Origin: Oleomonas cavernae
GTDB lineage: Bacteria; Pseudomonadota; Alphaproteobacteria; Zavarziniales; Zavarziniaceae
Length of the DNA stretch: 64,000 nucleotides
Reading direction: 5' to 3'
Assembly: GCF_003590945.1 (NCBI RefSeq)
Contig: NZ_QYUK01000011.1
Location: 3,628,909 to 3,692,908 of the forward strand
Part shown: positions 43,256 to 55,631 of the stretch, in pieces
Layout: each line of letters starts with the position of its first letter
Numbering within the stretch: the stretch's first letter is position 1
Notes under the pieces: generated by a model
The model's input: the letters and a program-made list of their open reading frames with translations, nothing else
Database searches by the model: none
What the model was told of the DNA's origin: nothing
Translations under genes and position numbers: made by a program

Positions 43256-43332
<77 letters not shown>

Positions 43333-44329: not shown

Positions 44330-44887
44330 TCAACTAACTGCCCTGCCGCCAAGCGCACGAACCAGCCGGAATAACTCGGCCTGGTATTTCGCGTCATGAA
44401 GGGCGTCATGATCGCCCTGGCGCGTAGGCGAGAGATGTTTGGAGATCTGGCTCGATCGAGTGTCGGACCATGTGCTGCCCGTTGCGCCCATATACAAAGC
44501 TTTGATGTCCAATGCGGCAAAGCCAAATGGGTTCACACCCGTGAAGCGATGGAAATAGTAGTTTATGAACGACCAGTCGAACGGCGCATTGAAGCCAACG
44601 AACACAAGCGAGGCATCGTGTCCCGCAAGCGCCAGCGCCCAATCGGCGAACGCTTTCATGGCCACCGTCGGATCACTGCCACGCTCGGCTAGTTCCTCCA
44701 ACGATAGGCCCGTCACCTCCAGGGCCCTGGGATCGGCATTGTTATTGATTGGTTTCAGCTCGATGCTAAACCACTTGGACTCGTCATCAACGTCGCAAGC
44801 GCCGATCGAGAGCAGGCTAAACTCGCCGGGAATTGGCCCGGCAGTCTCCACGTCGACGGATATGAATATTTCGCGCTTGCTGCTCAT
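44330..44887 (-). CDS. DEDDh 3'-5' exonuclease of the CBASS operon
   Basis: 185 residues of the DnaQ-like fold. The DEDDh residues are Asp12 and Glu14 (VDVETAG), Asp104 (FNAPFDWSF), and His160/Asp165 (HDALHD). It should degrade DNA or RNA ends with two metal ions. The ATG overlaps the effector stop by four bases, making it the fifth gene of the CBASS operon. Exonucleases of this kind are known accessory proteins of some type III CBASS loci (named Cap18 in that scheme, from memory). Its job there, such as processing phage DNA or tuning the signal, is not shown here. Confidence 0.8.
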   Translation of the reverse strand: MSSKREIFISVDVETAGPIPGEFSLLSIGACDVDDESKWFSIELKPINNNADPRALEVTGLSLEELAERGSDPTVAMKAFADWALALAGHDASLVFVGFNAPFDWSFINYYFHRFTGVNPFGFAALDIKALYMGATGSTWSDTRSSQISKHLSPTRQGDHDALHDAKYQAELFRLVRALGGRAVS

Positions 44888-46050
44888 GAGATCAAGGGCT
44901 CCGCTGGAACGAGAGGTGGCCTGTTGCGGATCGCCTTCCAATGCTCACGAAACGCGCTGCGGCGGTCCTCGGCCGATCCCTTGGTCGACCAGTGCAGGCC
45001 CGATAGTGTAGTGATGTCGAATGGAAGACTACCGCCCTCTCGCGCCATGACCATGGTTGGCAGGCCGCGCCCCAGCGCATAGCCCAGTTCGAGGAAGCAG
45101 TTAGGCCTGGCGCCAGTGATGTCAGCAAGAACGACGCTGCTGCGATGCAGCTTGGCGAAAATCTCCTCATCGATGCGCGCATGATCATAGGCCTGGCGGC
45201 CATCGATTACGACGAGGCGATAGCCCAACTCACTCTCTATGACGGGCTGCACCACGATATCGAAGAAATCCTGTACGTCAGCATATTCGGGCAGGTCAGG
45301 GTTCAGCAGCCGCACCGCGAACGCCGGCGGGCGTTCGAGCGATTCCAGCAGATCCACTAGATCGCCGACGCGCTCGGCGGTCGATTGCCGAGTGGGAAAA
45401 CGGATGCGGTTCAACCAATGATGCGCGTCACCCCCATCGGCAATCTGGAACAGCCTCCTCGTTTGATGACTGGTGAGCCCGAAACTGTAGAGCCGACGCG
45501 CGCCAGTGCTCTCTGGGCACAGGGGAAGGTTCAATGGAACGATGGGTTTGCCTGCGTCGTGATAGAGATTGGCGAGGAATAACACACCCTCGGTTCCGCC
45601 CAACGGTACGAGGATATCTCCGAACCTCGCCTGAGCCTCCATGCGTTTGCTGTTCATGTTCCAGTACGCGGCGTTCTCAATCTGCACCAGCGATGAGCTG
45701 CGCAAATCGTCCCACAAATCGATGAACTCGGCCGGAATCTGATCCTCGCTCTTATGATGCTGAACGGCGACCGCCAACGGCCCAGGCGCATCAGCCGGCC
45801 GACGGGCCAGGTTGTCGCGGATAGTTTGCCAAATCAGCCAGTCGAAACAGATCGGCGATCCATCGCTCTTGCGCTTTGGCTCCGCATCCACCGGCACAAC
45901 GAAGTTGGCACCCCGCTTTACCAGCTCTTTGACCAGACCGGCCACCAGGTCGCGCGCTAGGCGGACATCATCTCCGGCCGCGACCGCGACATCTTCGACA
46001 ATGCTGCCGGCGATATGGATGCGGCGGCCGAACAGAGGTGAGCGGGCCAT
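44884..46050 (-). CDS. Probable CBASS effector: SLOG/STALD-like domain plus deoxyribosyltransferase/TIR-like domain
   Basis: 388 residues. The first half has the SLOG (LOG/DprA-like) Rossmann marks: RRIHIAGSI at 9-17 and the nucleotide loop PLGGTEGVLFLANLY near 149-163. The second half, about 260-345, is a second Rossmann-like domain with VLADITGARPNCFLELGYAL; the N-x3-E pattern (Asn317, Glu321) matches the catalytic region of nucleoside 2-deoxyribosyltransferase-like and TIR-like NAD-cleaving domains. In other CBASS loci SLOG-type domains bind the nucleotide signal and an attached domain kills the cell. I infer the same here: signal binding by the first half, nucleotide or NAD hydrolysis by the second. 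It sits between the TRIP13-like ATPase (start and stop share one base) and the exonuclease. Confidence 0.72.
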   Translation of the reverse strand: MARSPLFGRRIHIAGSIVEDVAVAAGDDVRLARDLVAGLVKELVKRGANFVVPVDAEPKRKSDGSPICFDWLIWQTIRDNLARRPADAPGPLAVAVQHHKSEDQIPAEFIDLWDDLRSSSLVQIENAAYWNMNSKRMEAQARFGDILVPLGGTEGVLFLANLYHDAGKPIVPLNLPLCPESTGARRLYSFGLTSHQTRRLFQIADGGDAHHWLNRIRFPTRQSTAERVGDLVDLLESLERPPAFAVRLLNPDLPEYADVQDFFDIVVQPVIESELGYRLVVIDGRQAYDHARIDEEIFAKLHRSSVVLADITGARPNCFLELGYALGRGLPTMVMAREGGSLPFDITTLSGLHWSTKGSAEDRRSAFREHWKAIRNRPPLVPAEPLIS

Positions 46051-46946
46051 TATTTGTCCTCCATGATGGGAGAAGCTCTAAGCGTCGTTGCAATTTCGTA
46101 CAGGTGCTCGAACCGCAACGGATCCTTGGGATAGGCCCTAGCTAAAGCCGCCGGATAGAGACGCGTGCGGATATCAGAATAGGTCCACGTCGGCTGTCCG
46201 CTCCGCGGACCTGTAGCGGTCACCAACTGGCCGATCTGGGCGGAGTTCAACGAAAGCGCGGCAAGATCCATCGACAGGAGTTGGCGCCGCTCCTCGTCGG
46301 AGGGCCGACGAAACTCCTCGATGATAGCCGCACGCCTCTGGAGAGCGGCGTCAAGTGCAGATAGGCGATTGGTGCAGAGGAAGACCACGATCCGGCCGCC
46401 GTATTGGCGCAGATCGTCGACGCACTGGATCAGAGTATTCACAGCCACCTTGTCTTCGTGGTGGCTGTACTGCTGCGACCTCGCGGCCGCAAGACTGTCG
46501 CCCTCGTCGATGACGAGGATCGCCCGGCGGTGCTTGCCCGCGGACTGCACTACCTTCTTGAAGGCATCGGCGATCAGCGTGCCCATCTCGCCCACCATAC
46601 CGCTACCGCGTACACGATTGCTGAGTTTGAAGAGAGTCGAGTCTTCGCTGCGCGCTTCGGCCACCAGCCGGTTGGCCATGCATTCGGCGACGGCCGTCTT
46701 TCCAGTCCCGACGTCCCCGTGGAAAATGACAAGCGGATACTGCTCGGCGACGAGGTCGCATAGCGTCAACCGACCCCCATGGTGCAGCTTATTCCAGCTC
46801 GCCAATTCGCCCACATTGAGCAGCAAGCGAAGCTGGTCATGGACGCGGGCATAGCGCGCATCAAAGCCCAACAGCGTCTTTGCTCGGCGAGCCAGCCCGT
46901 CGTCAGGAAGCGGTGTTTCACTGTCAAAAATCGAAACCTGGCTCAC
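46050..46946 (-). CDS. TRIP13/Pch2-like AAA+ ATPase of type III CBASS
   Basis: 298 residues from a GTG that overlaps the HORMA stop (GTGA). Walker A GDVGTGKT at 77-84, Walker B ILVIDE at 143-148, sensor FLCTNRLSALDAALQRRA with the arginine finger near 204-205. In CBASS this enzyme pulls HORMA proteins apart from the activated cyclase and so switches the response off. Gene order and overlap fit the known Cap6/Cap7 partnership. Confidence 0.9.
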   Translation of the reverse strand: MSQVSIFDSETPLPDDGLARRAKTLLGFDARYARVHDQLRLLLNVGELASWNKLHHGGRLTLCDLVAEQYPLVIFHGDVGTGKTAVAECMANRLVAEARSEDSTLFKLSNRVRGSGMVGEMGTLIADAFKKVVQSAGKHRRAILVIDEGDSLAAARSQQYSHHEDKVAVNTLIQCVDDLRQYGGRIVVFLCTNRLSALDAALQRRAAIIEEFRRPSDEERRQLLSMDLAALSLNSAQIGQLVTATGPRSGQPTWTYSDIRTRLYPAALARAYPKDPLRFEHLYEIATTLRASPIMEDK

Positions 46947-47437
46947 GCGGCCCAATCCTTTCGCTGCATGCCGTAGCTGTTGCTGGCGTATGCACGCCCG
47001 CCGGTCGATTTCAGACCGCTGTGGCTGGTATCGGCATCAGTTGGCGACCAGCTGATTTTTAGCTTGCCCTTCATGGCCTCCTTCGCAGAGGCGGTGTAAG
47101 CGTTGGTGTAGCCGAGAACGATCCGCAGAAAAGGAATAGCCACCCTTGGCCATAGCACTCCGCCGGGGCGGCTGGAGGTCAGGCCTCCAGCATCCGTGTC
47201 GACATCGAATCGCGTGGCCTTTATCTCGACGCCGGCGCTGAAGAGCGTGACGTCGACGTACTCTAGGTATCCGGCCTTCGCGAGGACCTCGACGTCGTGT
47301 GCGTATTGGTTGGCTCGCTCTGGGGTCCAGCCAGCCGTGCTATCCGCGATCATGATGAGGTCGGCCTTCACCCGACGAGCTACATTCTCGATGTCGATGA
47401 CCGTGTACGTGGCTGTTCGCGTTTGCGTTTGTGACAC
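46943..47437 (-). CDS. HORMA-domain sensor of type III CBASS
   Basis: 164 residues. The sequence begins TQTRTATYTVIDIENVARRV and continues as an alpha/beta protein of the size and composition of bacterial HORMA proteins, ending in a flexible C-terminal arm (RAYASNSYGMQRKDW) that would form the mobile safety belt. The assignment rests partly on place: it lies three bases after a CD-NTase and overlaps a TRIP13-like gene. In such systems the closed HORMA, bound to a peptide of phage origin, activates the cyclase. Confidence 0.82.
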   Translation of the reverse strand: MSQTQTRTATYTVIDIENVARRVKADLIMIADSTAGWTPERANQYAHDVEVLAKAGYLEYVDVTLFSAGVEIKATRFDVDTDAGGLTSSRPGGVLWPRVAIPFLRIVLGYTNAYTASAKEAMKGKLKISWSPTDADTSHSGLKSTGGRAYASNSYGMQRKDWAA

Positions 47438-47440
47438 AGC

Positions 47441-48385
47441 TCAGTCCTCCGTCTTAAAACGAGGCCCGAAGATTTCCTTCCAGACTTCGTTGTCGTTTTC
47501 AGCCGATGCGAAATTCGCCGTTTCCCAAGCCTCCTGGGCCGCCGACGCAATCTCTTTGCGTTCGGCCTCCGAGATGCGGCTGGCGACGTTGTTCAGGCTG
47601 TAAACCGGATCGAGAATGACCACCGGATCGGTGAAAGTGGTGAAGGGCCCGACGTTTTCGGGGAACCGAACTTCGTCCTTCAGGCCCGACTGCGCGATGT
47701 AGAGCAGGAAGTTGCGGAAGCGCTGTTCAATCGAGCCGGCAGCACCTTGCTCAGCCAGGACATAAGCCATGATCAGTTCGATAGTGAAGGATTTAAGTGG
47801 CTTGACGCCCGCATGGTTACGCCACTTCTTTGCCATTCGAACGAGCGTGCGGAACTCCTTGTCTTGTTCCTTACGGTCGCGAACGAATTTAATCTGGCAA
47901 GGCGCACAAGTCTGAATCTTCGATCCGTCGCGAATGTCGAACTGCCACCCATAACCCGGCCGGCTGGGGTCTTCGATGACGGGCACGATATCGACACTAA
48001 GGCCCGAGCCAACGAAGGTAACGGTCGCCGCCTTGCGCTGGATCTCAAAGTCCTCAACGGACTTCGTTGGGTAAATCTTGATCAGCAGATTGTAGATCAG
48101 ATCATTCAGGCTGACGAGTGTCTCCTTACTAGCGTCCCTCCCTGAGATGTAGAACACCACGTCGACGTCAACGGGGTCTACCGCCGTCTTGCGCAGGATA
48201 GTATATTTTGCGAAAGATCCGGCCTTCACGACCTTAGTGATCTTAATCTCTGTTTTATCTTGAATGCTGCTGCAGAGTTCGAAAATCAATCGATCAACTT
48301 GAGCGTGGTATTCTTTGCGCTTGTCAGCGGGCAGGCGCAGCACGTTGCTGTCGTAGTATCGAAGCTCTGTATTACTCAACGCCAT
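47441..48385 (-). CDS. CD-NTase (cyclic oligonucleotide synthase) of type III CBASS
   Basis: 314 residues. The nucleotidyltransferase signature is complete: GS at 56-57 (KAGSFAKYT), the metal pair Asp73 and Asp75 (PVDVDVVFY) and the third carboxylate Asp132 (GLSVDIVPV). Then come KEFRTLVRMAKKWRNH and a helical C-terminus. It resembles the clade C enzymes that partner HORMA proteins and make cyclic tri-adenylate-like signals; the exact product cannot be read from sequence. It is the first gene of the operon. The ATG before ALSNTELRYY is used; it lies after GGAAAGGGGCGG. Confidence 0.92.
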   Translation of the reverse strand: MALSNTELRYYDSNVLRLPADKRKEYHAQVDRLIFELCSSIQDKTEIKITKVVKAGSFAKYTILRKTAVDPVDVDVVFYISGRDASKETLVSLNDLIYNLLIKIYPTKSVEDFEIQRKAATVTFVGSGLSVDIVPVIEDPSRPGYGWQFDIRDGSKIQTCAPCQIKFVRDRKEQDKEFRTLVRMAKKWRNHAGVKPLKSFTIELIMAYVLAEQGAAGSIEQRFRNFLLYIAQSGLKDEVRFPENVGPFTTFTDPVVILDPVYSLNNVASRISEAERKEIASAAQEAWETANFASAENDNEVWKEIFGPRFKTED

Positions 48386-48551
48386 GGGCCGCCCCTTTCC
48401 AAGTTGCAGGCGAATCGGGCGGCAACCGTCAGGCCGGCCACCTCGCTTCATCCGACGAAATCCCCGCCCCATCGTGCTGCGGTTTACAAAACCATAGAGA
48501 ATTGCTCGTCTACACCAGAGATGGTCAATCCGGAGACCGATTTCAAGGGTA

Positions 48552-48594
48552 TCAGTTTACAAAAAATGCACTATATTGCCTCTATGTAAACTGA
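48552..48594. promoter_or_regulatory. Inverted-repeat operator between CBASS and its divergent regulator
   Basis: TCAGTTTACA at 48552-48561 and TGTAAACTGA at 48585-48594 are exact inverted copies with 23 bases between. A third partial copy, GTTTACAAAACC, lies at about 48481. The block sits 30 bases before the XRE regulator gene and 170 before the CD-NTase start, placed to control both. Confidence 0.65.
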
Positions 48595-48622
48595 CAAAAC
48601 CGGATCCTCATAGGAGGTCGAC

Positions 48623-49686
48623 ATGATTGGACACAAGCTTAAGGTCGCGCGCGCGGCATCCGGCATGTCCCTGCGCGGCCTAGCTGAGGCAATGGGCGGC
48701 TTGGTATCCGCGCAGGCCATTGGCAAATACGAGCGCGATGAGGATATGCCGAGCTCCCGCGTTCTGATCGCTCTCGCAGACACCCTGCGCGTTACGGAGG
48801 ACTACCTGCTCGCCGAGGATGAGATTGCCCTAGAAGGCGTCGACTTCCGAAAAAAGGCGGGATCCTCCGCCCGCGAGGAGGCAGCGCTCGAGGCCCGCAC
48901 GATACATATGCTGGAGCGCTATTTGGCGGTCGAGGACCTGCTGCACCTTCGTAGCGTGGATTGGGAGCAGCCACGCAGTGCGCCGCACCCCGTTGCCGAC
49001 CTGCGCGACGCTGAGGATGCCGCTCGTTCAGTTCGTGACGACTGGGGTTGGGCAATGACCCTATTCCCCAGCTCGCAGAGCTTCTCGAGGAGCGGGGTAT
49101 CAAGGTTATGTCGCTTGATCTCGACGATATAGACGGTCTAGCTGCAAAAGTGCGTCGACGGGATCGAGACGCTGCACGCGTGATCGTTATCAAGCGCAGC
49201 ACGTGGTCGGAAAGAAAGCGCTTTAATCTTGCACATGAGCTTGGCCACATGGTCTTGCACGTCATGCCAGGCATAGACGAGGAAAAGGCCGCGCATCGGT
49301 TTGCCGGCGCTTTTCTGGTGCCAGCGGACGTCTTACGCGCGGAAGTCGGCGCGAATCGTTCGTCTCTCAGCCTAGGCGAGCTCGTGGCCCTGAAAGTACG
49401 ATTCGGCGTGAGCATTCAGGCGCTAACGTATCGCTGCAAGGATCTGGGTATCATCAACCAAGCGGCTTTTTCAAAGCTGTTCAGGACCTTCGCAGAGAGA
49501 GGTTGGAGGACGGCTCCATTTGCGGAACCGGCGACGATGAAGCCAGAGCTTGAGGAGCCCAAGCGATTCGAGCGACTATGCTACCGGGCCCTGGCAGAGG
49601 GAATTATCGGTGAATCTCGCGCAGCCGAGCTTCTTGACATCTCCGTCCGTGAGCTCGACGCCCGTCTCGATCAGGTTGTGGCATAG
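48623..49686 (+). CDS. XRE-family regulator fused to ImmA/IrrE-type metalloprotease (frame broken)
   Basis: About 355 residues when restored. The N-terminal part is a Cro/CI-type HTH (HKLKVARAASGMSLRGLAEA, AQAIGKYERDE). After a linker the frame breaks at GGGG (49044-49047); one added G continues into an ImmA/IrrE domain with the zinc site FNLAHELGHMVLH (HExxH) and the FAGAFLVPAD segment. This is the single-chain version of the CapH-repressor/CapP-protease pair that controls some CBASS operons: DNA-end or ssDNA signals activate the protease, the repressor is cut and the operon is derepressed. Divergent placement with the shared operator supports this. A role with the following PIN gene is an alternative. 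Confidence 0.75.
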
Positions 49687-49689
49687 CCC

Positions 49690-50181
49690 ATGCCGGTCCT
49701 CGTTTCCGATACCTCGGTCATCATCGACCTGGAACGCGGAGCCCTTCTAGAGGATCTGTTTCGGCTGCCCTTTGAATTTGCAGTGCCCGACTTGTTGTTC
49801 AGCCGCGAGTTAGCGGGTCCGCTTGGAGACCGCCTCGTGGCGCTTGGGTTGCGGGTTGAGGAACTCACCTCCATCGAACTAGCAAGCGCTACCACGATAA
49901 GGCGGGAGAGGAAGGAGTTATCAACGGCCGATACCTTTGCATTCGCCATCGCCGAAGGACGACGGTGGCCACTGCTCACCGGCGATGGCGGCCTGCGCCG
50001 TCTCGCGGCCGAACGTCAGATCGCATTTCATGGCGTCCTGTGGATATGCGATCAGTTCGAAGAAGGGCAACACGTTCCCGGCCCGAGATTACATGCGGGA
50101 CTCATGGCGATTTCCTCACACCCACGCTGCCGTCTGCCCGCGACCGAGGTACGTGTGCGCCTGGGGCGATATGTCATTTAA
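49690..50181 (+). CDS. PIN-domain ribonuclease-like protein
   Basis: 163 residues. The PIN acidic residues are in SDTSVIIDLERG, the middle Glu/Asp near ELSTADTFAFAIAEG, and LLTGDGGLRRLA. It begins four bases after the metalloprotease gene, so they are co-expressed. XRE-metalloprotease plus PIN pairs are known as toxin-antitoxin-like modules. Confidence 0.78.
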   Translation: MPVLVSDTSVIIDLERGALLEDLFRLPFEFAVPDLLFSRELAGPLGDRLVALGLRVEELTSIELASATTIRRERKELSTADTFAFAIAEGRRWPLLTGDGGLRRLAAERQIAFHGVLWICDQFEEGQHVPGPRLHAGLMAISSHPRCRLPATEVRVRLGRYVI

Positions 50182-50351: not shown

Positions 50352-51113
50352 TCAAAAGTGGACAGACAGCTTTCGGCCGAACCCGGTCGTCGCGATCAAA
50401 CCGGCTAACCGCGCTCGTAGTCCAGCTTTGGATACCAATGATCCCCTTGCCCCCTCCGGCGTGGTGTCCAGCACATTCCATAGTGGGGCGAAGTCTGGTG
50501 CACCACGGGGATCCTGGCCTGGGTTGGCAGAGTCGTCCGTCATCTCGCCACTCCAGAAGTGGCGGATAGTCCCGTCGCGCCTGGTGAACACATTGAAGCT
50601 CGGGATCTCTGCGCCATCTGGCAACAGCCCATGATAGTCACGGGAGTAGTTGTCGTTGAGGTCGCTGAAGAGCTTTAGATTTCTCCAGCCCCCTTCGCGC
50701 TTCCACGTTACTAGGCGTTCGATCGGTGAACGAGCGACAACGGCCAGCGCAATTCGCTGCTCGATGTCCGCGGCATTGCCATCCCAGCCACCCAGCAGAT
50801 TGGTGCACATAGGGCATGGTCGCTCGCGCTTGGGCCCGAACATGTAGCTGTAGATCGCCAGTGTCTGCTTGGTGCCGAATAGGTCGGCGAAGGATTGGGG
50901 GCCTTGTTCGCCCTCGGAGCGATAGTCACCGATCACCTCTCCGCCAGGCGGCAACGCCCTGCGTTGGGAAGCTACTCGCTCAAGATGTCGGCGCAGGTCG
51001 ATCTCCTCCGCCAGCAAGGCTGTGCGGGCGGTTCGGTATGCAACGCTCTCATTAGGGAACCGTACGGGGCTGCGGAGGGCGAGGTCGGCGGCGGGCAGCA
51101 GGTTATTTGCCAT
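50352..51113 (-). CDS. DUF899-family thioredoxin-like protein
   Basis: 253 residues. Family marks are LLAEEIDLRRHLERVASQRRALP, FADLFGTKQTLAIYSYMFGP, the CPMCTNLLGGW motif and GTIRHFWSGEM. DUF899 proteins have a thioredoxin fold of unknown role. The ending after TPEGARG is unlike the usual GDWYPK tail, so the last 30 residues may come from a recombination. The ATG before ANNLLPAAD is used. Confidence 0.8.
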   Translation of the reverse strand: MANNLLPAADLALRSPVRFPNESVAYRTARTALLAEEIDLRRHLERVASQRRALPPGGEVIGDYRSEGEQGPQSFADLFGTKQTLAIYSYMFGPKRERPCPMCTNLLGGWDGNAADIEQRIALAVVARSPIERLVTWKREGGWRNLKLFSDLNDNYSRDYHGLLPDGAEIPSFNVFTRRDGTIRHFWSGEMTDDSANPGQDPRGAPDFAPLWNVLDTTPEGARGSLVSKAGLRARLAGLIATTGFGRKLSVHF

Positions 51114-51902
51114 GGGATCCTTCACTTCGACTTGCGCCAGGTCAACGTCCGTCGGCGTGGATAGTTCAAGGCCGATGGGACGCCAGCGGGTTCGCCTCGT
51201 TGGTCCACTTCCCGTCACGATGCTCGAAGACCGTGTGCCCGATCGGCAGGCTCTCTCTGAGCCCGGTTGCGCGCGATATGGAGAAGTATCCGGTTCACGA
51301 CATGGCGATAGCCGAGGTTTGAAGCCGCTTTCAATTCTTTAGAGGGCCTTTGATAATCAGTAGCGCGTAGCCCTAAATCGTCAAGCTGAAGGTCACCGAC
51401 ATGAGCGAAACTGGCAAACCGTAGAGGCCAACGCCCCATGCCACCGTCCTTACCCTCAATGAAATGCGAAAATTAAGTTTGAGCACCGTTGCATCCAACG
51501 GATGCACGCTTTTCGCCAGAATAATCAGAGAAGTTACCAGATTTTGATAGGAACATATGTGTGCGCCGTTGGATCGTATCTGATTACCAAATCGGCTGCG
51601 ATTCCCTCAGCTGTTGGAATCAGAGTCGGTATAATGGCATTTCCTCGTGCACATATGCCAAGGGGCGACAGAGGCTTATACGTTCGTGCTCTGCCACCAG
51701 TATTGGGCCGCTCGCCGCGCGGCTAGCGGATTTATCATGTGCAATCGATGAATCGGCGCCCGCTCCACGCCCGATGAACCCATATACATATGCGCATGCC
51801 GAGCCCGGACCGCGTGGGGACATGCTTATGTTCCCCGCTGGTGTGGTTTTGGATTCAGCAAGACGCACGTCGCCGCGCGATCCTGATTGAAGGGAGATTG
51901 GA
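51114..51902. other. 789-base stretch without a supported gene
   Basis: Lower-GC DNA with several frames of 60-110 codons but none with a recognisable domain or a ribosome-binding site. An AT-rich part (51440-51660) contains CATATG copies near 51554, 51652 and 51787 and could hold promoters. Some of it is probably decayed coding sequence. Confidence 0.35.
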
Positions 51903-52475: not shown

Positions 52476-52877
52476 ATGACCAAGGACACTTCCACACGGA
52501 TATCACCTGCATCGCTAGCGCTGTTGCGCGAGATGTTCCCGCATTTGAGTGGGGCGGATGCGATAGACAGTTGCCTGCAGGAAGTGTTGGCCATGCGCCG
52601 CGCGCTGCAGGCGCGCAAGCACATGGTCGACAACATCCCGGCCGAAGTTGCGGCTATTGTCCAGCAATGCCTCGCACCGGTGGCCGATCAAGTTCGGAGC
52701 TTCGTCGCGCACCAGATCGACGCCGATCGTTACTTCATGGCACAGCTCAGCGCGATCGCCGCAGCACTCCAGGCAGCGCCATCGCCGAGCGGTGATCTGC
52801 TCGCCAATGTGATCAATCGTCTCGGGCGCAAGGTAGATGAACTATCCGAGATTCTGAAGCAGCTAAGGCCCAGGTGA
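52476..52877 (+). CDS. Small helical protein upstream of the relaxase, likely mobilisation accessory
   Basis: 133 residues. ISPASLALLREMFPHLSG at the start may form a short DNA-binding helix pair; the rest is a long helix (AIVQQCLAPVADQVRSFVAHQ and onward), consistent with a coiled coil. It overlaps the relaxase gene region, the position of relaxosome accessory proteins next to MobF relaxases. No firm family. Confidence 0.5.
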   Translation: MTKDTSTRISPASLALLREMFPHLSGADAIDSCLQEVLAMRRALQARKHMVDNIPAEVAAIVQQCLAPVADQVRSFVAHQIDADRYFMAQLSAIAAALQAAPSPSGDLLANVINRLGRKVDELSEILKQLRPR

Positions 52878-52882
52878 TCCGG

Positions 52883-55631
52883 ATGGTTATCAAGCTTCAT
52901 AAGCCGGCCAGCGCAGGCTACTATCTGGAATCTTCGTACCAATATTACGGTGCCGGACAGGAGCCACCAGGTTATTGGATCGCCTTCGGGCCCACGGCGG
53001 ATAGCCTTGGGATCCGATCGGGAGATTTAGTCGAAGCGAGCCACTTCGAGAGCATCCTCCAAGGCTTCCGTCCGGATTCTGGCGAGGCCCTCGGGGAACT
53101 CAGAGCGGACAGGAATATTGGCTATGATCTCGTCTGCGCGGCCCCGAAGTCGGTCGCCGTTCTAGACGCGATCGCACCACCGTCGATACGAAATGAGATC
53201 GCCGCAGCGCAGGCCACTGCCGTGCACGAGGCCATGGAACTGGTCATCAATCGATCAGCATCGTCCCGGCGAGGGCATAACGGGCGAGGTGAATCGGTAC
53301 AGGCATCGATTGTTGCGGCAGCGTTTCCGCAACACGACGCGCGGCCTCCCGCCGGTCAATCGATCGGTGATCCCCATCTGCACACGCACGTCGTTATCGC
53401 CAACGTCTCCGTTGGGATGATGAATGCTGGCGAGCGCTGGACGGCACTCGCCTGTACCAGCACGCCAAGGAAGCGGCCGCCGTCTACCACATGGCACTGG
53501 CTCGAGAACTAAGACGGCGCCTTGCCGTAGAGATCGTGCGGAAAACCGAAGGGCTATTCGAACTCGCCGGGATTCCGGCAGAGTTGGTCAAGGCATTTTC
53601 AAAACGGAGCCGGGAACTCGATGCGAGCGCATCGGCGGATGATCGCGATCAACAGCAGCGCCGTTCGCGACAGGCGAAGGGCGAGCCTACTGATATTTTG
53701 CGCCGACAGGCGTGGAAGGATGAGGTCACCGCGCTGGGATATGATGCGGACATCATCGTTCAGAGCGCCGTAGGCCGACGTGTAGCAGAGCATCCGCTTC
53801 CGGATTGGACGATGGTTGCCGAAGAGATCACAGCGAAAGACTCGTGCCCGCGGGTACGCGATGCGAGACGAAAGATCACTGAACACCTCGTGGGATTCAA
53901 TATCGATAAATCATCCCTCGTGGAGATTCAGCGCCAGGTGATCAGCGAGAGATTTATCGACCTCGGCTTCGATACAAGCAGAGAAGCGATTTGCACCACG
54001 CAAGCTGTCTTGCGAGCAGAGCGGCGGATCGTCGACATCGCACCAAAAATCGCAGCGCGTTCAGCGCACGCACTCCATCCGTCACAACTAGAGCAAGCGC
54101 TCTTTTACGCGGACTGTGACCACGAGCAAGTGCTGGCTTTCCGGGCCGCGACATCCGGCAGGGATCTTACTGTGATCGAAGGCGCTGCTGGGACGGGGAA
54201 GTCGCGGACCATTGGGATGGTGGTCGAGGCATACAAGGCGGCCGGGTATCAGACGCTCGTTACCGCGCCCAGTTGGGTGGCGACCAAAGGTCTTGGGGAA
54301 GCAGTGGGATCCGATTACTCGGTCCTTCCTGAACTTTTGAACGACCTGAGGGGAAACAAGCGATGGCTCCCGCCAACTTCCGTAGTGATCGTGGACGAAG
54401 CCGGGATGGTCGGCGCCCGCTCCATGGCGAGCCTGTTGACCGAGGTGGAGAGCTTTGGCGCAAAGGTAATACTAATCGGGGATCGCCATCAGTTACAGCC
54501 GGTCGAAGCGGGTCCAGCACTCTCTTTGGCATTGGAGAGGCTACCCCATGAGTCTTATGCCACACTGTCCACCGTTCGTCGGCAGCGATCCGCGAGTGAC
54601 CGCGAACAAACGCTGCGCTGGCGCGCAGCAGATCCTGACGCGGCGTTCGAAGCAATTAATTTTGCTCGTGCTCAAGGCACCTGGCGTTCGGTCAAAAGTG
54701 AAGAACAGGCGGCCGATAGTGCCGTTGACCTGTGGGCATCCTTCCAGGCCGCCGACGAAGAGGTGTTGATCCTGGCACGAACGCACGCCGAGCTCCGCGC
54801 CATCACCGACCGTATTCGTAAAAAACTTCGAGATTCAGGCCAGATTGTCGGCGAGGACGCAATCATCCTGGCCGCGGACCGCCAGGGGAATCTCTTCGAC
54901 CTTCCGATCGCACGTGGCGATCAGGTTCGGATCGGCAAACGCGTAAGGAAGAAAGGTCTGATCAATGGAAGCGGCGGAACAATTCAGGAAATTAGCACGA
55001 CCCAAGACGGAGTGGTCGAGATAAAGCTCTTGGTCGATGGAAGGATCGTTAGTGTAACCAGCGAGGAACTTCGCGATCCCGAGAGCGGTGGATTGAAGAT
55101 CAGACATGGCTACGCCAGCACAACGCATGCGGCGCAAGGCGTGACCGTCAAAAATACAATTGTGGTGGCCGGGACGGTACCAACGGGTGGAGCGCCAATT
55201 TGACCTACGTGGCTGGGTCGCGGCATCGCGACTGCTGTTACTGGGTCGTGAACGACGAACCTAGTCGGACAAGCAGTGGACGAATCTTGCCTGACAGTGA
55301 CGTCATTGAGCGCATGGCCATTGACTTGAGCCGACCTGACCACAAGGCAAGTGCGCTCATCGCATGGGACCGCCTGCAGAGGCGTCGCGGAGCGGAGGCA
55401 AGCGCGCCAGCGGCAGCCGCCATGGCCATGCTTCCTGTGGTGCAAGAATCTCGCGAGAGGAAACTCAGGATGCAGATTGCGAGCGCCCTGCTTTTGCTGA
55501 TCGACCGCGTTCAATTTTTGACCGATCATGTGCATTCCGTTGTGATGGCGCGGATCCGCGCTGCCAAGGCAAGTCCCCCTGAGATCGTCCGCGTGCCGAA
55601 ACCCAGAGCGCGCGATGACTATGAGCGCTGA
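52883..55631 (+). pseudogene. MobF-type relaxase/helicase (TrwC/TraA-like), disrupted
   Basis: Three consecutive frames together spell a relaxase-helicase. The first (to about 53450) has the TrwC relaxase start and the metal-binding HLHTH at about residues 165-169. The second (about 53460-55170) has the helicase: Walker A EGAAGTGKS, Walker B VVIVDEAGMVG and GDRHQLQPVEAG, motif LSTVRRQ. The third (from about 55180) has WSANLTYVAGSRHR and a short tail. At both joins the sequence looks like small deletions outside long homopolymers, so this is likely true decay. An intact version would nick at oriT and unwind DNA for conjugative transfer. Confidence 0.8.

Follow-up and report, generated by a model that had tools for sequence, protein, structure and literature searches.

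The window analyzed here, a stretch of 64,000 nucleotides of Oleomonas cavernae DNA, carries a CBASS operon, an anti-phage system of the suicide kind, that is faced by two divergent genes, one for a fused XRE/ImmA-IrrE regulator and one for a PIN-like protein that is predicted to be a toxin cutting RNA. We propose that these two genes form a control module that is probably both a toxin–antitoxin pair and the switch of the divergent immune operon. Sequence comparison shows the fusion, the pairing with PIN, the operator, a repeated association with unrelated immune operons and the exchange of those operons, and the pair has the look of a transferable on/off unit for bacterial immunity.

Table 1. 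Features of the control region and its two flanks (positions within the window)
Feature	Position	Strand	Match or remark
DnaQ-like exonuclease	44330..44941	-	PADLOC effector exonuclease, E 7.9e-89
Cap17-like effector	44884..46050	-	PF18178, E 8.1e-95
TRIP13-like ATPase (Cap6)	46050..46955	-	PADLOC TRIP13, E 8e-126
HORMA protein (Cap7)	46943..47437	-	bacHORMA_1, E 8.2e-50
CD-NTase	47441..48472, true start probably 48385	-	PADLOC Cyclase, E 3.2e-127, residues 30-341
Putative half-site O2, GTTTACA	48482..48488	.	73 nt from the same core in the first arm of O1
Putative CBASS promoter, RpoH-like, CTTGAA-N16-ACCATCT	48519..48547	-	−35 adjoins O1
Putative operator O1, TCAGTTTACA-N23-TGTAAACTGA	48552..48594	.	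Arms 48552-48561 and 48585-48594
Alternative sigma70-like promoter, TTGTCA-16-TATAGT	48570..48597	-	Overlaps O1; 1 found, 0.2 expected
Regulator, N-terminal piece: XRE HTH, helical linker, FR motif V-D-F-R-K-K	48623..49132	+	PF01381
Regulator, C-terminal piece: ImmA/IrrE (M78) protease, HELGH	49048..49686	+	PF06114
PIN-like nuclease, predicted toxin	49690..50181	+	3 nt after the regulator's stop; PF01850

An RmrA-like regulator encoded as a single chain

Relatives were taken from a scan of genome contigs (the best 80 of 116, ranked by match) and from plasmid records. The close group of 70 loci consists of L033-L092 and of L023-L032, the latter being 10 of 66 plasmid records, chosen from the top with duplicates avoided; the distant group of 19 consists of L094-L112, whose proteins are likewise HTH-M78 fusions. 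L093 was left out, as the gene is incomplete there, running off the edge of the stored stretch.

In the window, the helix-turn-helix and protease frames (48623-49686) lose register at about 49040-49050. The N-terminal piece, which matches HTH_3 (PF01381) with an E value of 2e-12, aligns to intact relatives over residues 1-141 and is out of frame after about 49045, while the C-terminal piece matches Peptidase_M78 (PF06114), HELGH included, with an E value of 1e-19. The first-pass annotation had taken the repressor-type HTH and the HExxH protease for one protein, and this reading holds: both domains are real, and in 70 of the 70 close loci among the matches listed an intact fused ORF runs in one frame through the break point, a count favored by the ranking by match, which prefers intact, full-length regulators. 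The fused protein of these 70 is 339-371 aa long from the aligned start and has no inner stop. When the window was compared with its nearest listed relative, L044, differences at the three codon positions numbered 12/4/66 before the break and 21/15/119 after it (27/6/92 in the PIN gene). The third-position excess on both sides indicates that the part after the break is not drifting; judged from these sequences, the frame break in the window copy either arose very recently or is a sequencing error. A frame-break detector applied to 400 kb of the source genome gave about 25 breaks per 100 kb, compared with 29 and 15 in two relatives, and left the regulator's break unflagged. A second frame break lies in the same island, about 4 kb beyond the regulator, where a TrwC-type relaxase is split over two frames (52874-53512 and 53491-55203) that match TrwC model positions 5-178 and 196-284, respectively.

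HExxH was conserved in all 70 close loci listed, as were the arginine of the FR motif (F-R in 66) and R198, an arginine seven residues before HExxH. The structure model of the regulator (pLDDT 90.4) puts F75-R76 within a strand predicted at 68-77. Only 7 of the 70 listed have Cys at position 218, and the loop is short in the 13 rows listed; the cysteine-switch loop of CapP and VapB52 is therefore not conserved, and activation may differ from that of these two proteins.

Analysis with PADLOC placed the regulator nearer RmrA, the antitoxin of RosmerTA, than CapH or CapP: the N-terminal piece scored 3.6e-15 against RmrA and 5.2e-5 against capH, the C-terminal piece 2.5e-32 against RmrA and 3e-16 against capP, and the intact protein of L026 2.9e-50 against RmrA and 2.1e-17 against capP, with L065 and L084 behaving likewise. 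The genuine CapH and CapP of L122 score 9.9e-30 and 3.6e-67 on the capH and capP models. By family models, then, the regulator is RmrA-like and not CapH/CapP. Membership of the CapH/CapP family was accordingly rejected, the regulator being one ORF in 70 of 70 listed loci and RmrA models fitting far better. Of the "single-chain CapH/CapP-like regulator" of the first-pass annotation, what stands is a single-chain HTH-protease, divergent from CBASS and with a conserved operator; the assignment to CapH/CapP does not. Like CapH/CapP, the regulator sits at the promoter region of an immune operon with an operator-like site. In VIA, its model matched the CapH N-terminal domain and CapP at Z 10.9 each (63 residues at 1.4 Å and 161 at 3.6 Å); other XRE domains ranked above these, for example P22 c2 (Z 12.8), and the model also matched IrrE. 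No fused HTH-M78 structure was present among the Foldseek and VIA matches listed; a sequence search for the regulator lists 9vzy. Another M78 protease (L002, G000:C11:3619606-3619986), in a 433-aa open frame, lies about 9 kb before the window.

A PIN-like partner downstream of the regulator

The PIN gene, which the first-pass annotation had missed together with the half-site O2, matches PF01850 with an E value of 2.6e-4 and 22.1 bits, just below the curated cut-off of 23.6. Its AF2 model (pLDDT 95.2) matches PIN proteins, VapC toxins and HARP ribonucleases, and D7, E40, D81 and D99, which, going by the PIN family, are probably the catalytic set, are invariant in 22 sequences, the window's included. 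In PADLOC the protein matched no RmrT model and only PDC-S70, at 0.0024 with a limit of 0.01. PIN lies directly downstream of the regulator in 67 of the 70 listed close loci and is intact in 61; it is broken or a remnant in six (L024, L033, L052, L072, L073 and L074) and absent in three (L080, L085 and L090). It was found beside the regulator in none of the 19 distant relatives listed. L029 has a diverged PIN without the usual T-G-D. PIN is likely to be a toxin that the regulator keeps in check.

Loss of PIN is not confined to loci with an immune operon: the nine loci with broken or absent PIN comprise six with an operon and three without (L073, L074 and L085). In the six with an operon (L024, L033, L052, L072, L080 and L090) the regulator is intact, although two of them, L024 and L033, also have a CD-NTase match that is split in two. 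A DUF899 protein (50352-51218) is encoded on the other strand after the PIN gene.

Divergent immune operons of several kinds

The divergent operon of the window is a complete type III CBASS, with CD-NTase, HORMA, TRIP13 and effector in one operon together with an exonuclease. Overall, the first-pass observation was borne out in its domains, frame offset, exact repeat and adjoining complete CBASS operon. A tRNA-Arg (CCG; 43256-43332) lies between polA and this operon and is a possible island edge; no repeat (at least 13 nt) of its end was found downstream within the window.

A divergent immune operon was identified in 52 of the 70 listed close loci, 46 of them with CBASS of several types and 6 with ubiquitin-like operons, a few of the 52 being damaged or cut by a contig end. 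Type III CBASS like that of the window accounts for 21 loci (in two of these the CD-NTase match is split in two, and one is truncated at a contig end) and CBASS of another HORMA type for 6; 13 have CD-NTase and E2, mostly with SAVED-HNH or patatin effectors, and 6 have CD-NTase with SLATT, SAVED-2TM or patatin. The ubiquitin-like operons are Bub-like in three loci and E2/ThiF(E1)/JAB in three. Remnants were present in L025, L048 and L076, and no immune operon was identified in 15 of the 70, including 4 whose left flank is shorter than 3 kb. Dereplication at 90% identity leaves 42 loci, 27 of them with an immune operon. In L025, a Sphingobium plasmid, an IS3 element has cut off the CBASS operon; the regulator, PIN and both operator sites remain. 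The divergent neighbors of L073, L074, L089 and L087 are, respectively, a metallo-β-lactamase-fold protein, a VapB-like and HATPase pair, an AddAB-like PD-(D/E)XK/UvrD pair and a DUF488 protein, which are possible further client operons.

Operon types were assigned by tblastn with seeds from the close loci, a procedure biased against the distant group, and none of the 19 distant relatives listed contained any of these seeds. In PADLOC, the 57 upstream proteins of the distant group gave no CBASS family among the 25 of 57 families listed; three of these proteins match RmrT toxins and one a defence reverse transcriptase. Some distant loci are ordinary RosmerTA, in toxin-first order.

Exchange of operons beside the control region

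On a regulator tree that was made quickly and has long branches, the type of divergent operon changes at least 14 times among the 52 classified loci. Regulators that are 97.5-99.7% identical face T1, T3b and T2s CBASS. The clade of L030, L059-L063 and L082 has similar DNA through PIN, regulator and control region, and its facing operons are SLATT, HORMA and patatin CBASS. Between L030 and L059, identity falls from 18/25 to 5/25 beyond about −175, where the divergent gene starts, and this point leaves O1 and O2 on the regulator's side. Between L082 and L059 the fall is gradual (21, 15, 13, 11 and 4 of 25 from −200 to −300), which places the edge of the exchange there somewhat inside the neighboring gene.

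The effector type of the window was found on 15 plasmids, 10 of which also turned up in the regulator search with at least 80% identity. Of the remaining five, three were inspected. On one of these, from Bradyrhizobium sp. 172, whose CBASS is of the same subtype, the operon is followed by a genuine CapH and CapP pair in place of the regulator; in the other two, neither is annotated within 6 kb.

Probable operator sites and putative promoters facing the immune operon

O1 is an exact 10-nt inverted repeat, with 23 nt between its arms, that lies between the regulator and the CBASS operon, as the first-pass annotation had pointed out. The pattern was found in none of 100 shuffles of the window at up to three mismatches, and the 5.64-Mb assembly has a single copy of its 7-nt core palindrome. 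The same annotation had suggested that the operator is shared with the divergent CBASS, a suggestion with which the conservation of the site is consistent: GTTTACA-N20-26-TGTAAAC, with at most one mismatch per arm, was present in the 150 nt before the regulator in 61 of the 70 listed close loci and exact in 39, where 0.19 were expected, this and the expectations given below for O2 and the −10s coming from simple resamplings. O1 was missing in the other nine close loci and in all 19 distant relatives listed. A paired change of the two arms, to GTTGACA/TGTCAAC, is seen in L070, L080 and L092, which is what a symmetric site for a dimer would predict. O2, another exact copy of GTTTACA, stands 72-76 nt further upstream of O1 in 35 of the 70 listed loci (about 0.02 expected), a spacing close to seven helical turns. 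Of 48 immune loci with O1, 33 have O2, as against none of 11 loci with O1 and no identified operon; for a −35-like TCAAG box the figures are 38 of 48 and 1 of 11. The Fisher tests for these contrasts ignore kinship. It is likely that this region is an operator and that the immune operon is under control of the regulator.

Toward the immune operon, CTTGA occurs within 18 nt of O1 in 42 of the 65 loci that have the first arm of O1, the window included. Forty of these 42 loci, again with the window, stand by an immune operon, one by a remnant (L025) and one by no identified operon (L070). A CCTATAT-like −10 (at most two mismatches) follows CTTGA at N15-16 in 31 of the 42, with about 1.0 expected; the putative CBASS promoter of the window has three mismatches to CCTATAT in its −10. 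In the available parts of two reports, CTTGAA-N15-16-CCTATAT is given as the RpoH1 promoter of S. meliloti (PMC4843759) and CTTGAA as the −35 of sigma32 (PMC10216364).

In the host, groES is preceded by CTTGAC-N16-CCTAAGT, three mismatches from the alphaproteobacterial RpoH pattern, and dnaK by GTTGCG-N16-CCTATAT, with an exact −10 and three mismatches in the −35, so that the heat-shock genes of the host fit the −10 and the spacing and not the exact −35. An exact match to the E. coli-type pattern CTTGAA-N13-16-CCCCATNT is seen at one place in the genome, at neither groES nor dnaK, and a looser scan for it at dnaK found none. A sigma70 −10 for the CBASS promoter showed no clear enrichment, with 8 of 42 loci at two mismatches, none better, and 6.2 expected at two or fewer. 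Alphaproteobacterial RpoD promoters resemble the RpoH-type pattern, which makes RpoH possible for the CBASS promoter and not established; on these motifs, we give a heat-shock (RpoH-type) promoter for the immune operon an even chance. A literature search for CBASS with RpoH returned only an off-topic match.

Distribution and free-standing pairs

In the genus and order of the window, the only copy found was its own (1 of 6 and 1 of 7 genomes), and in its class 18 of 385 genomes, its own included, had relatives, mostly distant ones. Relatives of the regulator were present in 66 plasmid records and those of PIN in 48. Among the 13 nearest viral contigs (34-50% identity), PIN was present in all 13, in two only in part, and O1 in five; no immune seeds were found in these 13, two of which have only about 220 nt upstream. 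In the annotated phage collection no record matched at E 1e-30. The presence of PIN and regulator without immune seeds in viral contigs indicates that the pair can live alone and needs no CBASS, and it seems to have acquired control of immune operons later.

Discussion

Our model for the two-gene module is as follows. In the resting cell, a dimer of the regulator on O1 (and O2) would silence both its own promoter and the CBASS promoter and would also keep the PIN protein inactive. Once single-stranded DNA (ssDNA) accumulates, through DNA damage or phage replication, the protease domain would cut its own chain near the FR motif (F75-R76), parting the DNA-binding domain from the rest; the operator would be vacated, CBASS expressed and PIN freed. 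Repression, triggering by ssDNA, the cut, and the toxicity and neutralization of PIN are here modeled on VapB52, CapH/CapP and PprI/DdrO, and by this analogy self-cleavage of the regulator on ssDNA is likely. More tentatively, and at somewhat less than an even chance, the module could be a two-key fuse box, in which the self-cleaving protein gates PIN and any plugged-in immune operon, the operon is RpoH-driven, and full firing would need both protein stress and ssDNA.

Several observations count against a two-gene immune switch, namely the unconserved cysteine switch, the absence of O1 from 9 of 70 loci, the broken or absent PIN in 9 of 70, at loci with and without operons, the 15 of 70 without an identified operon, the frame-broken regulator of the window and the lack of an RmrT match. 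Some of these would suit a pair that is only a self-regulating toxin–antitoxin (RosmerTA/VapBC52-like) in a defence island, with O1 serving its own promoter and CBASS an uncontrolled neighbor. RmrA is indeed the best PADLOC match, PIN accompanies 67 of 70 listed regulators, O1 lies within the regulator's own promoter region, and pairs stand free in viral contigs and at the 15 loci without an identified immune operon. Nevertheless, we regard this explanation as unlikely, considering that the orientation is divergent, that O2 and the TCAAG box are almost confined to immune-operon loci, that unrelated operons have been exchanged at the edge of a shared control region, and that a sister CBASS has a real CapH and CapP instead of it.

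A fused CapH/CapP in the strict sense, that is, a dedicated CBASS regulator without a toxin role as the first-pass annotation had it, is very improbable: the structural matches to CapP and CapH (VIA Z 10.9 each) and the link to CBASS fit it, but RmrA models fit far better, PIN is the partner in 67 of 70 listed loci, and six operons other than CBASS are also faced. It is also improbable, though less so, that PIN is a guard, an addiction device punishing loss of the regulator/CBASS island, with ssDNA release secondary or absent. The plasmid-borne relatives (66 regulator and 48 PIN records), those in viral contigs and the PIN residues conserved in 22 sequences agree with such a role; strict conservation of HExxH and the FR motif would then be needless, however, and six loci keep an intact regulator beside an immune operon with PIN broken or absent (in L024 and L033 with the CD-NTase in two pieces). 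For the window copy only, there is a substantial possibility, short of even, that the regulator is a real pseudogene and CBASS is deregulated or under a truncated, non-inducible repressor, which would be compatible with our explanation for the family. The frame break is present in the assembly and the TrwC relaxase about 4 kb on is also split, whereas selection is not relaxed after the break as compared with before it and an intact PIN gene adjoins.

If the two-gene module works as proposed, ssDNA-triggered toxin–antitoxins and ssDNA-triggered controllers of immune operons would be joined in one protein, and immune operons would be exchanged as cassettes beside a fixed switch, with the operator and promoter motifs providing a means to find such controllers. 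A fused HTH-ImmA and PIN pair controlling CBASS was not found among the open-licence papers listed in the literature search, judged partly by titles and the starts of abstracts. The two-domain protein beside PIN had already been predicted as a module in 2009, as the available part of PMC2701414 records, and cis cleavage has been published for a relative; none of the papers listed was found to describe the clade's association with immune operons, its two-site operator or the swapping of operons.

Comparison with known systems

Operons of an Xre-COG2856 fusion with PIN were predicted in 2009, and in the portion of that paper available its authors suggested a wider regulatory cascade (PMC2701414); Makarova et al. 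2009 considered it of considerable interest to find the targets of the COG2856-linked repressor. The window has the same two-domain protein beside PIN, and to the question of targets, then unknown, CBASS and ubiquitin-like immune operons are proposed here as a concrete, testable answer. In RosmerTA, the antitoxin is ImmA, often with an HTH, and an association with a PIN-like domain has been noted (PMC10440598). Its RmrA is the best PADLOC match of the window's regulator, while the window's PIN matches no RmrT model; the divergent immune operon and the two-site operator belong to the window's family and are not mentioned in the available sections of that report.

VapBC52 of M. tuberculosis (Rv2514c-Rv2515c) resembles the window pair in its fused HTH-IrrE protease and PIN toxin and in its FR at residues 75-76. 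Its antitoxin VapB52 cleaves itself in cis on ssDNA, with the FR motif as the probable site (PMC13273310), a precedent for the cut in cis that the first-pass annotation had suggested. The Cys switch of VapBC52 is not conserved in the window's family, and the part of that source at hand says nothing of an immune operon under its control.

According to papers citing Lau 2022, CapH and CapP likewise combine an HTH repressor with an ssDNA-activated M78 protease at immune operons; they are two proteins, whereas the window's family is one chain, nearer RmrA and with a PIN partner. PprI/DdrO also consists of an ssDNA-activated M78 protease and a repressor, and PprI R85, part of the ssDNA-binding cavity, corresponds to R198 here, but the two are separate proteins and control DNA-damage-response genes, as far as the excerpt of PMC10904395 goes. 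Finally, CapK/CapS is likewise a portable, ssDNA-responsive controller, of CBASS and Bub, and VapKSC is a PIN version of the same logic (PMC13373217, in part). These use kinase/STAS chemistry, and in them controller and PIN are separate systems, whereas in the window's family the two stand together.
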